Positions 3,500-35,082 of a stretch of 64,000 nucleotides of DNA are shown one piece after another. The position numbers and the translations under genes were made by a program. Within the stretch, counting starts at the first letter, position 1. Each line of letters starts with the position of its first letter. Under the pieces are notes generated by a model. The model ran no database searches. It had not been told where the DNA came from and saw only the letters and a program-made list of their open reading frames with translations. Where the stretch lies: IMG/VR virus record IMGVR_UViG_3300017991_004311, positions 34,937-98,936 of that record. The stretch is one strand, 5' to 3'. The stretch is from a virus.

Positions 3500-4236
3500 G
3501 GGTGCTCGGGGGGGATTACGCGAGGATGGGACCGGACCAGACGGTGTTCTGCCTCGCCGACAACGAGGGATGGTCGGAGCATGTCGTGCACGGGTTCTGG
3601 GAGTTCTCCGGGTTGAAGAACCCGCAGCGCGTGCAGAGGACGAGGGACCTTTATGTGTCAGAGCATCCGATGTTCGTGTCGGTGGACGCGGTGGGGATCG
3701 GCTCGGGCACGGCGGACGATCTGGAGGCGATCGGGGTCCCGGTGTTCCGGGTGATGGGGGGAGCGGCGGCGTTCAACCCGGACTACTACGATCTGCGTTC
3801 GGAACTGTTCTGGATCATGCGGAGGAAGTTCGAGCGCCATATCATGCACATCGTCGCCCAGGGGGTCACGAAGGCGCAGAGGGAGAGGATCATCCGGGAG
3901 GTCAGCAGCCTCCGTTATTATACCACGTCGAAGGGGAAGATCAGGTTTGAGTCGAAGGAGGAGTACATCAAGCGGGTCGGGAAGTCCCCCGATTATGCCG
4001 ACACCCTCTCCTACACCATGGTGACCATGGAGATGTGGGAAGGGGCGATGGGCGACCAGGGCGACATCGAGGTGCTCGCCGGCGATCCCGGCCCGTATCC
4101 GAGGAGCACGTGGGGCGGAGGGGGGATCGGGAATCGGGACAACATCCCCGACGACCCGGATAGGGGAGCGTTCGGCGAGGTGTCGATCGTGCGATTCGGA
4201 GTCAGGGACGACTACGACGATGAGGATGACGGGTAG
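3496..4236 (+). CDS. terL: Terminase large subunit, nuclease part (split gene)
   Basis: The protein (246 aa) starts at the ATG overlapping the ATPase-gene stop. It begins MRVLGGDYARMGPDQT, where the first nuclease Asp of the TerL RNase H fold is expected, followed by VSVDAVGIGSGTADDL (second acidic cluster) and SPDYADTLSYTM (third acid). It would cut concatemeric DNA at packaging. The C-terminus is acidic and glycine-rich. The ATGA overlap would let the two halves be made in equal amounts. Confidence 0.88.
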   Translation: MRVLGGDYARMGPDQTVFCLADNEGWSEHVVHGFWEFSGLKNPQRVQRTRDLYVSEHPMFVSVDAVGIGSGTADDLEAIGVPVFRVMGGAAAFNPDYYDLRSELFWIMRRKFERHIMHIVAQGVTKAQRERIIREVSSLRYYTTSKGKIRFESKEEYIKRVGKSPDYADTLSYTMVTMEMWEGAMGDQGDIEVLAGDPGPYPRSTWGGGGIGNRDNIPDDPDRGAFGEVSIVRFGVRDDYDDEDDG

Positions 4237-4272
4237 GAAGAGGGGTTTGGTGTTAATATAAAATGAGAAGCC

Positions 4273-4419
4273 TCCGTTGTGGTGGAATAGGTAGACACTA
4301 GTGAAAGGCATAAGCGAGTCTAGTGGTGTAAATTTGGGAACACGTCTCCGAAACTATAAACGATTTGCCATCGTAGGAAGTAGGAGGGATACCAGGTTAG
4401 AGTCCTGGCGGGACATCCA
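4273..4419 (+). ncRNA. tRNA-like RNA, Leu-type D-arm, interrupted body, encoded CCA
   Basis: The D-arm (4282-4298, GTGGAATAGGTAGACAC) is that of a leucine-type tRNA. The T-arm (4392-4408, CCAGG-loop-CCTGG with loop TTAGAGT) is canonical, followed by a seven-base acceptor strand, T and CCA (4417-4419). Between them are about 93 nt, some 60 more than a normal tRNA, able to form several hairpins, e.g. ACGAT/ATCGT. The 5' acceptor strand does not pair with the 3' strand. So it is not a plain tRNA: perhaps a Y-RNA-like mimic as at 14.0 kb, or a disrupted tRNA. Confidence 0.55.
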
Positions 4420-13844: not shown

Positions 13845-13993
13845 GCATAGTGGGCACGCTGTTCAGGTTGGCGAGGTTGGGGGCGGACGTGAAAGCGTTC
13901 GGTTCCGGTGATCCGGTGAGGATGGCCCGGAGGGTCAAGAACAAGGCGGTGGGGAGGACGGTGGCGAGCAGGCTGTTCAGGTGGCCGTGGTAG
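13841..13993 (+). CDS. Small basic protein
   Basis: A 50-aa protein, ATG overlapping the previous TGA. It is basic and tryptophan-ended ([21 protein letters not shown]) with an amphipathic N-terminus. It is the last gene before the Ro60/Y RNA locus. No family recognised. Confidence 0.4.
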
Positions 13994-14001
13994 TGTGATT
14001 C

Positions 14002-14029
14002 TTGACATTGAGCGGAAATAATGTATAGT
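14002..14029 (+). promoter_or_regulatory. Promoter of the Y-like RNA / Ro60 locus
   Basis: TTGACA (14002-14007) and TATAGT (14024-14029) are spaced by 16 bases. The expected start (about 14036) coincides with the first base of the tRNA-like RNA, as expected for an RNA gene promoter. The TATAGTGTAAT continuation is shared with the 10764 promoter. Confidence 0.78.
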
Positions 14030-14035
14030 GTAATT

Positions 14036-14168
14036 GACGGGGGTAGCTCAGTTGGTAGAGCGCTAACGTACCCTGTGCGATTGTTCGGCCTTTTCAGGTT
14101 GCGCAGTGGAGGGTTACTTCTCCTGCTAAGAGAGAGGTCGCAGGTTCGAGTCCTGCCCCCCGCCACCA
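14036..14168 (+). ncRNA. Y-like RNA 1: tRNA mimic carrying an inserted Ro60-type stem
   Basis: Acceptor strands (14038-14043 with 14157-14162), D-arm (14046-14061, GCTCAGTTGGTAGAGC), an anticodon-type arm (14118-14134, loop CTGCTAA) and T-arm (14140-14156, loop TTCGAGT) are those of a tRNA. About 56 nt lie between D-arm and anticodon arm. They fold as GTACCC/GGGT(T)AC (14068-14073, 14111-14117), an internal loop TGTGCGATTGTT / CGCAGTGGA and a capped CGGCC/GGTTG helix. No CCA is in register. The RNA begins at the promoter start and lies upstream of a Ro60 gene, whose bacterial relatives bind tRNA-mimicking Y RNAs. Confidence 0.75.
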
Positions 14169-14189
14169 TATTTGTATTGGGCAATGATT

Positions 14190-14278
14190 CGAGAGAAGTG
14201 GCGCAGGAAAGGGATACTTCATCATACGGAGATGACGCCGAAAGGCATGTTCCCTGTCCGATTGTTCCACTTCTCTTA
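14190..14278 (+). ncRNA. Y-like RNA 2: circularly permuted partner
   Basis: A 10-bp end stem (AGAGAAGTGG 14192-14201 with CCACTTCTCT 14267-14276) closes an internal loop CGCAGGAAA / TGTCCGATTGTT, then GGGA(T)AC/GTTCCC (14211-14217, 14249-14254). The tip has two hairpins: TCATC/GATGA (14219-14235), and GCC-GAAA-GGC (14237-14246) with a GNRA tetraloop. The internal-loop strands and the bulged T match RNA 1 but in swapped order, with an A-T to T-A compensating change. It ends just before the Ro60 gene with TTACTATTTT. Confidence 0.65.
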
Positions 14279-33428: not shown

Positions 33429-35082
33429 GGTCAACATCGTGGTGCCGACGTACAACGGGATCAGGTTCCTCGATCCGCTATGGCGGGCGCTGAACGAATC
33501 GATCAGGGATATCGATTGGGTGATGACGCTCGTCGACGACGGCTCGCGCGACGCCACGGACAAGTGGGCGGCGGCCCACCCCGAGGTCAACTACGTCAGT
33601 CACGGCGGCGCCAACCTGGGCTTCTCGAAGTCGTGCAACGATGGGGCGAGGTCGGTCGAGAGCGAGTGGGTCCTGTTCCTGAACAACGACACCGAGCCCC
33701 AGCCCGGGTTCTTGGAGGAGATGCTGAGAGCGACGGGGGAGATGATCGCCCCGCAGATCGTCGGGGCGAAGCTGGTGTTCATGGACGGGAAGGTGATCCA
33801 GCATGCGGGCATCCGCTTCATGGCGTCGGGTTATCCCTACGAATTCGGGACCGGACGCGCGCTTCACGATCCCGAATGCGACCGGGCGCAGGAGGTGGAC
33901 GCGGTCACGGCGGCATGCATGCTGGTGGAGCGGGAGCTGTTCCTGGAACTCGGCGGCTTCGACGAGAAGTTCCTGAACGGATGGGAGGATTCCTCGTTCT
34001 GCCTCACGGCCCGCGAGCACGGGGCCCGCATCTACTACTGCCCCACGGCGGTGGTCAGGCACCATCATTCCGGCTCCGAGGGGCGCTTCCTGCACGAGAT
34101 CGAGAACAAGGAGCGCTTCCGGCAGCTCTGGATACACCGGCGTAAAGTACACGTGCTCACGCCGTTCTGGATGGCGGTGGCGGCCACGTGGCGCTGCAAC
34201 TACCGCTGCCGGCACTGCGACATCTGGAGGCAGCGGGCCAAGCCCGATATCCAACCGAGAGAATTCTGCCGCGGCGTGGGGCACGACTTCTACTCCAACA
34301 TCGTGAACGTCGCCATCTTCGGCGGCGAGCCCGTGCTCATGGACCGGGAGCTGGTGAACCTCATCGCGGTGTGCGCGGACCGGTGGAAGGGGGCGGAGAT
34401 AGGCATCGTCACCAACGGCTCTATTCCCAGGAATCAGGAGGAAATCTGGCTCACCGTGAGCCGGAATCTGACGGGCAATTTCCTGGTGCGTGTGTCGGTT
34501 GATGGCCCCGAGGAGGTACACGACAAATTGAGGGGGATCAAGGGCGCATTCGCCGACGCGGTGGAAACGGTCAGGATCGTCGATGGAATCTGGCCGGGGA
34601 AGGCGGGGATATCGGTCACGGTCTATCCCGACACGGTGGAGCACCTGCCCTACCTCGTCGAGCTGGTGGAGCGGATGGGCGTCACTTTCTGCCTCCGGGC
34701 GGGAGTGAGCGGGACCTATTTCGGCGGGAAAGTGCTCGGGGAATGGACCCCGGATAAAGTGGCATTCCTGCGCAGGACGATGGAGGCGACTCCGAAGAAG
34801 CTCAAGTCGCTTGATGCGTTCACGAAGGCGCTGCCGGGCTACCTCGGGACCGGGGAGCATCGCCCGTGCTCGGCGTACCGTTCGGCCCTGGTGGTCGACA
34901 CGGACCTGCAGGTGTCGGTGTGCCACAACCGCCCGCCCATGGGCCACCTTATCGACATCCCCTCGTTGTGGGGGAGGACGGCCGAGTGGTGCCAGGCGGG
35001 GGTGGAGTGCCTGACGGGGCAGTGTTTCGAGCCCAGCTGCTTCGTGGACGGCCCCTACGCGGCGTCGGCGTATGTGGACTGA
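33421..35082 (+). CDS. Glycosyltransferase family 2 / radical-SAM fusion
   Basis: About 553 aa. Residues 1-235 are a GT2 enzyme: VNIVVPTYNGIRFLDPL, VLFLNNDTEPQPG (DxD-type), EVDAVTAACMLVERELF and NGWEDSSFCLTA. After a short linker, residues ~255-520 form a radical-SAM domain with CNYRCRHCDIW (C-x3-C-x2-C for the 4Fe-4S cluster), GGEPVLM, then a SPASM-like cysteine-rich end (CHNRPP, CQAGVECLTGQCFEPSC). Such a fusion is rare; it may couple sugar transfer to radical modification of a sugar or peptide. Confidence 0.85.
   Translation: MRKVNIVVPTYNGIRFLDPLWRALNESIRDIDWVMTLVDDGSRDATDKWAAAHPEVNYVSHGGANLGFSKSCNDGARSVESEWVLFLNNDTEPQPGFLEEMLRATGEMIAPQIVGAKLVFMDGKVIQHAGIRFMASGYPYEFGTGRALHDPECDRAQEVDAVTAACMLVERELFLELGGFDEKFLNGWEDSSFCLTAREHGARIYYCPTAVVRHHHSGSEGRFLHEIENKERFRQLWIHRRKVHVLTPFWMAVAATWRCNYRCRHCDIWRQRAKPDIQPREFCRGVGHDFYSNIVNVAIFGGEPVLMDRELVNLIAVCADRWKGAEIGIVTNGSIPRNQEEIWLTVSRNLTGNFLVRVSVDGPEEVHDKLRGIKGAFADAVETVRIVDGIWPGKAGISVTVYPDTVEHLPYLVELVERMGVTFCLRAGVSGTYFGGKVLGEWTPDKVAFLRRTMEATPKKLKSLDAFTKALPGYLGTGEHRPCSAYRSALVVDTDLQVSVCHNRPPMGHLIDIPSLWGRTAEWCQAGVECLTGQCFEPSCFVDGPYAASAYVD

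Follow-up and report, generated by a model that had tools for sequence, protein, structure and literature searches.

The 64,000-nucleotide stretch of viral DNA analysed here (hereafter the window; positions 34,937 to 98,936 of IMG/VR record IMGVR_UViG_3300017991_004311) belongs to a 98.9-kb record that is assigned to a tailed phage because it contains terminase, portal and prohead-protease genes. A 306-base gap in the window, bounded on the left by a small unknown open reading frame (ORF) ending at 13993 and on the right by a Ro60/TROVE gene, is the site of two RNAs. RNA 1 is a tRNA with an open acceptor stem and a Y-RNA stem placed between its D arm and its anticodon arm, and RNA 2 has the topology of an ordinary Y RNA. 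Neither phage Y RNAs nor tRNA-like Y RNAs are new; RNA 1 is a circular permutant of YrlA, the tRNA-like Y RNA of bacteria, and is referred to below as un-permuted, its D, anticodon and T arms standing in the order of a normal tRNA.

The protein encoded to the right of the gap is a member of the Ro60/TROVE family, with a TROVE domain (PF05731, 89.8 bits against a cut-off of 23), a helical ring plus vWFA fold, and the metal-site motif DLSGSM. When its AlphaFold model (predicted local distance difference test score, pLDDT, of 87) was compared with known structures by Foldseek, the closest entry by E-value was 9KOP (7e-20), followed by the Ro60 of Thermus phage phiLo (9L5Y, 6e-19). Human Ro60 and D. 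radiodurans Rsr are among its further PDB matches, and the template-modelling (TM) score to Xenopus Ro60 (1YVP) is 0.78. Among named phages, its nearest relative comes from Halogranum tailed virus 1.

RNA 1 possesses the tRNA-like D, T and acceptor arms that are typical of YrlA. U8-A9 is present and the D and T arms are standard as read by eye, the anticodon arm has 5 base pairs and a 7-nucleotide loop (CUGCUAA), the variable loop is 5 nucleotides long (AGGUC), and the acceptor is open and ends in A-CCA at 14165-14168 (A73 plus CCA). The Rfam tRNA model matches 14037-14164 with 42.2 bits and a large insert, and an Rfam search of the window RNAs gave no Y or YrlA match. ARAGORN called no tRNA in the intact window; the cloverleaf that tRNA finders recognise has four arms, and RNA 1 has five. 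In a search of the whole 98.9-kb record RNA 1 is the sole tRNA-like sequence, and the window RNAs have no DNA similarity to the phage records searched. RNA 1 folds modestly better than shuffled sequences (z = -2.0), as expected of a tRNA-like molecule. An earlier interpretation of the same letters (the sequence-only reading) had described RNA 1 as a Y-like RNA, which was correct as to the Y stem, but understated the molecule by missing the canonical-order tRNA with its free CCA end. Transcription of RNA 1 would begin at a putative promoter whose end lies 7 nucleotides upstream of it; the predicted start, at about 14036, is the first base of the acceptor stem, so that the correct 5' end may be made by transcription itself.

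RNA 2 folds more stably than any of 200 shuffled versions (z = -4.8). Its stem is formed by its two ends in the B-then-A order of a Y RNA, and in place of a tRNA-like domain, with neither T nor D arm, it has two hairpins. It thus resembles YrlB and ordinary Y RNAs, which also have an end-formed stem, hairpins inside and a position beside Ro60, with no notable difference apart from the sharing of its stem with RNA 1. The coordinates of all these features are collected in Table 1.

Table 1. Positions of the two RNAs, their parts, the promoter and the Ro60 gene in the window, and of the related RNAs in phage crAss001.
Feature	Position	Strand	Basis
Putative sigma-70-like promoter, TTGACA-16-TATAGT	14002..14029	+	11/12 matches; 2 sites found vs 0.2 expected in region
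RNA 1, un-permuted Y-tRNA, Y-RNA stem between D arm and anticodon arm	14036..14168	+	Rfam tRNA match; homologue covariation
RNA 1, acceptor 5' strand GACGGGGG, 8 bp, one A.C mismatch	14036..14043	+	
RNA 1, D arm GCTC/GAGC, loop containing GG	14046..14061	+	
RNA 1, Y stem strand A: helix GTACCCTGTG, then CGATTGTTC	14068..14086	+	
RNA 1, capping hairpin CGGCC-TTTTCA-GGTTG closing Y stem	14086..14101	+	Sequence; partly in consensus fold
RNA 1, Y stem strand B: GCGCAG, then helix TGGAGGGTTAC	14101..14117	+	
RNA 1, anticodon arm TTCTC-CTGCTAA-GAGAG, anticodon GCU	14118..14134	+	
RNA 1, variable loop AGGTC	14135-14139	+	
RNA 1, T arm GCAGG-TTCGAGT-CCTGC	14140..14156	+	
RNA 1, acceptor 3' strand CCCCCGCC, then A and encoded CCA	14157..14168	+	
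RNA 2, strand B ... strand A, closed by GAGAAGTGG/CCACTTCTC	14191..14277 (approx.)	+	Fold vs shuffles
RNA 2, Y stem strand B: GCGCAG, then GAAAGGGATAC	14201..14217	+	
RNA 2, distal hairpins TCATC-ATACGGA-GATGA and GCC-GAAA-GGC	14219..14246	+	
RNA 2, Y stem strand A: GTTCCCTGTC, then CGATTGTTC	14249..14267	+	
Ro60/TROVE protein, 497 aa	14300..15793	+	PF05731; AlphaFold model; PDB matches
Two unannotated tRNA-plus-Y-stem RNAs of crAss001	L332 3624-3767 and 3879-4017; MH675552.1, about 96200-96620		

Both RNAs hold a strand A (a helix, then CGATTGTTC) and a strand B (GCGCAG, then a helix ending in GTTAC or GATAC, then TTC), A preceding B in RNA 1 and B preceding A in RNA 2. This opposite order of shared stem sequences is as the sequence-only reading had claimed, the limits of both RNAs being now widened to those of Table 1. 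Nor is the order coincidental. Across the Ro60 loci sampled from viruses, bacterial genomes, phage records and plasmids (about 95 at this stage, more later) the sense strand carries the strand-B motif 163 times, the antisense strand 8 times. For the covariation test, strand A was picked by motif only, which gave 58 units, and the control consisted of swapping partners between units in 5000 rounds. The helix positions b0-b6, which adjoin the CG/GCGNAG internal loop, are paired in 71-97% of the units, and at most of them all four Watson-Crick pairs are represented; pairing over b0-b7 amounts to 81.5% of cells, compared with 52.7% after the partner swap (maximum 61.4%). These data support the view that one helix and internal loop is closed at opposite ends in the two RNAs, and the strong covariation of the seven pairs b0-b6 across the roughly 95 loci supports selection on the structure. 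The particular evidence on which that view had been built fared less well. The two sequences do carry the T-A/A-T swap, and among near relatives b7 often pairs (roughly two thirds of 16 units); taken alone, though, the swap is weak evidence, since the pair b7-a7 forms in 41% of the 58 units, which equals the expectation from base composition. The bulged T, which had been taken as key evidence, loses that standing, as the G-C and T-A pairs past it are formed in 24-40% of units, that is, at chance level. Over the 58 units pairing thus exceeds the chance level at b0-b6, but neither at b7 nor beyond the bulged T. Two other ways of choosing strand A were dropped, namely an automatic search for the best-complementary strand, which was biased and confused neighbouring copies, and a first motif-only pairing, in which the TTCGA of the T arm mimics strand A.

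Because this module is common to all the RNAs beside Ro60 genes, it is plausible that the shared stem would be the region contacted by Ro60. Position beside Ro60 and a stem conserved among Ro60-linked RNAs are what place RNA 1 and RNA 2 together among the Y RNAs. The A-B order also exists outside tRNAs: at L002 2214-2360 (labels of this form denote sampled loci) a further A-hairpin-B stem is carried by a scaffold that has no tRNA arms.

YrlA consists of a large stem, in which the 5' end pairs with the 3' end, and a tRNA-like domain (PMC8394870). Its canonical order, which we found in the rtcR-rsr-YrlA-rtcB operon of Rhizobium, on a Deinococcus plasmid and in 99 units of the Ro60 loci, is strand B, T arm, acceptor capped by a short loop, D arm and strand A. 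RNA 1 shares with the YrlA RNAs of Salmonella and of Deinococcus and Rhizobium operons a Y stem, a body of D, T and acceptor arms, and a gene beside Ro60/Rsr, and with phage examples of YrlA the same strand-A/strand-B module. In the YrlA of Rhizobium and Deinococcus the Y stem is terminal, the acceptor is capped and the T arm precedes the D arm, whereas the ends of RNA 1 pair as an open acceptor stem, the Y stem is internal and closed by a hairpin, and the D arm precedes the T arm; this arrangement makes RNA 1 a circular permutant of YrlA. YrlA reportedly has no free CCA end, and in this too the open, CCA-bearing acceptor of RNA 1 differs from it.

Eleven un-permuted RNAs were identified in nine viruses, two each in L008 and L011 and one each in the window, L002, L004, L010, L014, L117 and L320, the last being the one new true case from a tightened DNA pattern search; a looser form of that search, whose output was mostly noise, was set aside. 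When ten of them are aligned, 95% of cells are paired, changes on both sides are seen in 20 of 28 pairs, and the covariation score of 0.711 (0.228 when shuffled) was reached in none of 500 shuffles, while sliding the partner strands by one to three bases lowers pairing to 40-50%. RNAalifold recovered the five arms from this alignment without being given them, and part of the capping hairpin of RNA 1 is predicted in the consensus. The acceptor strands, although about 110 nucleotides apart, are 96% paired within RNAs and 65% paired after swapping (0 of 5000 rounds reached the former value). A covariance model built from the ten, with respect to which L117 is independent, assigns 83-121 bits to the eleven RNAs (83 to L117) and at most 70.6 bits to everything else in 100 loci, the next-best scores coming from readings across two tandem canonical copies and from plain tRNAs. 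No un-permuted form was found in 198 cellular genomes of one phylum, where hits reached at most 58 bits, were nearly all tRNA-sized and scored like plain tRNAs, and none was found near the Ro60 gene of Thermus phage phiLo. L010 has both permutations, both downstream of its Ro60 gene. The Ro60 tree, with low deep support, suggests that the un-permuted state changed about four times, and tandem YrlA copies would offer an obvious route to circular permutation through duplication and loss. The un-permuted RNA of L002 has the T loop TGAAAAT in place of TTCRANT (2173-2189), for which a T-loop fold is possible without U55. The loop CUCUGGA and the D arm of the L320 unit (4230-4354) resemble archaeal tRNA-Gln. 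Beside the Ro60 gene of Xanthomonas phage 10KY502B lies a canonical permuted YrlA, overlapped by a feature (L097 2256-2323) whose annotation as tRNA-Thr is probably wrong.

In Bacteroides phage crAss001 the covariance model recognised one un-permuted unit immediately 3' of the TROVE gene (64.8 bits) and, more weakly, a second (35.3 bits), scores that alone cannot tell units from across-copy readings. In crAss001 the acceptor strands pair at 7 of 7 positions, and so does the Y helix. DNA resembling this region occurs in 24 Crassvirales records, with coverage of 80% or more in 20 of them, and a comparison of crAss001, cr112, cr106, PhiCrAssBcn4 and PhiCrAssBcn20 shows compensating changes, with all pairs kept, in the Y helix and in a T stem. 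Two unannotated RNAs of a dominant phage group of the human gut gain a likely identity.

The anticodon arm was surveyed in 151 units near Ro60 genes, defined as TACTTC followed by a T arm. A perfect arm of 5 base pairs and 7 nucleotides with the loop YUNNNAA occurs in 32 of them, against 0.03 expected and a maximum of 2 in 1000 shuffles, and it occurs in both permutations. Positions 34-35 vary in these loops (UGU, GCU, GUU, UUU, GGU, GAU, UCU, UAU and CUU), and U36 is present in 29 of the 32; U33, U36, A37 and A38 are kept in units of L004, L014, L028, L029, L034, L035, L043, L053 and L097, in the window and in others. Every U36 loop would read ANN codons, and U36 with variable positions 34-35 is characteristic of tRNAs that decode such codons and bear t6A37. 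ARAGORN calls on rejoined tRNAs were not used as evidence for the arm, as about 67 of 99 rejoined units were still called after the anticodon stretch had been shuffled. An un-permuted unit of L008 (2293-2320) has the loop CUUCAGA, whose anticodon UCA would decode the stop codon UGA.

We consider the locus to be probably, though by no means certainly, a phage Ro ribonucleoprotein set of one Ro60 and two Y RNAs that share a stem module, with the tRNA body of RNA 1 docking on a tRNA-recognising factor. Judging from their stems and gene positions, RNA 1 and RNA 2 are most likely ligands of Ro60, which would bind the Y stem of each. The tRNA body of RNA 1 would serve as an effector domain that docks on a host or phage factor, so that RNA 1 may tether Ro60 to the factor or occupy it, and RNA 2 may compete for, or gate, the same Ro60 surface. 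A tether or decoy role suits RNA 1 because of its tRNA body with free ends and, as often in such units, an anticodon arm. In D. radiodurans a Y RNA tethers Rsr to PNPase (PMC8394870), and tethering or occupancy is favoured in general as the main role over an anti-nuclease decoy. Several observations weigh against the proposed ribonucleoprotein set. A canonical anticodon loop is absent from both crAss001 units, from L010 and from the second units of L008 and L011, so that the arm is dispensable in some members; the T loop of L002 is without TTC; the single-sequence fold of RNA 1 (-53.5 kcal/mol) pairs the insert and anticodon slightly differently from the constrained five-arm fold (-48.3 kcal/mol); and no terminator was found 3' of RNA 2.

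The most serious competitor, to which we would give perhaps a minor share of belief, is that RNA 1 acts as a decoy presenting its anticodon arm and tRNA body to a host anticodon nuclease, tRNA toxin or modifying enzyme, with Ro60 as carrier or stabiliser and counter-defence, not RNA degradation, as the purpose. The 32 perfect arms among 151 units and the U36 of 29 of these fit such a role, as do the proposal that Salmonella YrlA is a competitive inhibitor of an anticodon nuclease (PMC7790460) and the description of the crAss001 TROVE gene as transcribed early, less than 10 min after infection (PMC10136315); yet many units, including both from crAss001, have no canonical anticodon loop, Salmonella YrlA was not cleaved in the study concerned (PMC7790460), and no anticodon nuclease was identified in this analysis. 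A bolder reading, which we rate as slightly more doubtful again, is that phages have turned YrlA inside out, producing a genuine tRNA with free CCA and anticodon arm that enters tRNA pathways while bound to Ro60. If so, RNA 1 would enter CCA repair, charging, EF-Tu binding and the reach of tRNA-cleaving toxins, and Ro60 would be placed on tRNA surveillance or tRNA-based defence.

It is improbable that RNA 1 is simply a working phage tRNA, charged and used in translation, with the Y stem as an inserted arm or intron. The complete anatomy with CCA speaks for it, and ARAGORN, once the insert is removed, reports tRNA-Ser(gct) in the window and accepts 6 of 7 relatives as tRNAs; the program is permissive, however, as its calls on shuffled anticodon stretches indicate. 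Bacterial tRNA-Ser needs a long variable arm, where RNA 1 has AGGUC, several relatives are without an encoded CCA, U33 or any anticodon loop, and an excised intron would not need a stem sequence conserved with Y RNAs. We regard as very unlikely a cis-acting leader that controls Ro60 translation in place of trans-acting RNAs: RNA 2 does end about 23 nucleotides before the Ro60 start codon with no obvious terminator between, but the RNAs of crAss001 and L010 are located on the 3' side of the Ro60 gene, and copy numbers range from one to five. Least credible, and largely refuted, is the idea that un-permuted RNAs are an artefact of reading the D half of one tandem YrlA copy with the T half of the next. 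Such readings do attain 70.6 bits in tandem arrays, but the true un-permuted RNAs exceed them and have matched acceptors, and in the window no strand B precedes the D half, while the T half is followed by neither a partner acceptor nor a D arm.

Other natural RNAs offer partial parallels. Like RNA 1, tmRNA joins a tRNA-like domain to another functional RNA and has natural circular permutants, but RNA 1 has no mRNA-like region or SmpB link, and the Rfam permuted tmRNA model gives 12.6 bits against a threshold of 47. The permuted tRNA genes of algae and archaea have their halves swapped as in the YrlA topology; these are precursors spliced to normal tRNAs, whereas the present data do not suggest such processing for RNA 1. 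No description of the un-permuted, open-acceptor form with an internal Y stem was found in the literature covered, which did not extend to the primary YrlA papers, so that an earlier phage description is possible. The two RNAs of the window show the putative Ro60-binding stem to be a module that can be moved and does not depend on strand order, and both circular permutations of the tRNA part of bacterial Y RNAs occur in nature. With free acceptor ends and conserved U36-A37-A38 loops in many members, the partner of the Y RNA tRNA mimic becomes directly testable, in the cultured phage crAss001.

Elsewhere in the window, a 739-aa ORF (16263-18482) encodes a ClpP-type head maturation protease fused to a second prohead-protease-like region, and a gene at 1313-1762 encodes a Vsr-type mismatch endonuclease (PF03852).
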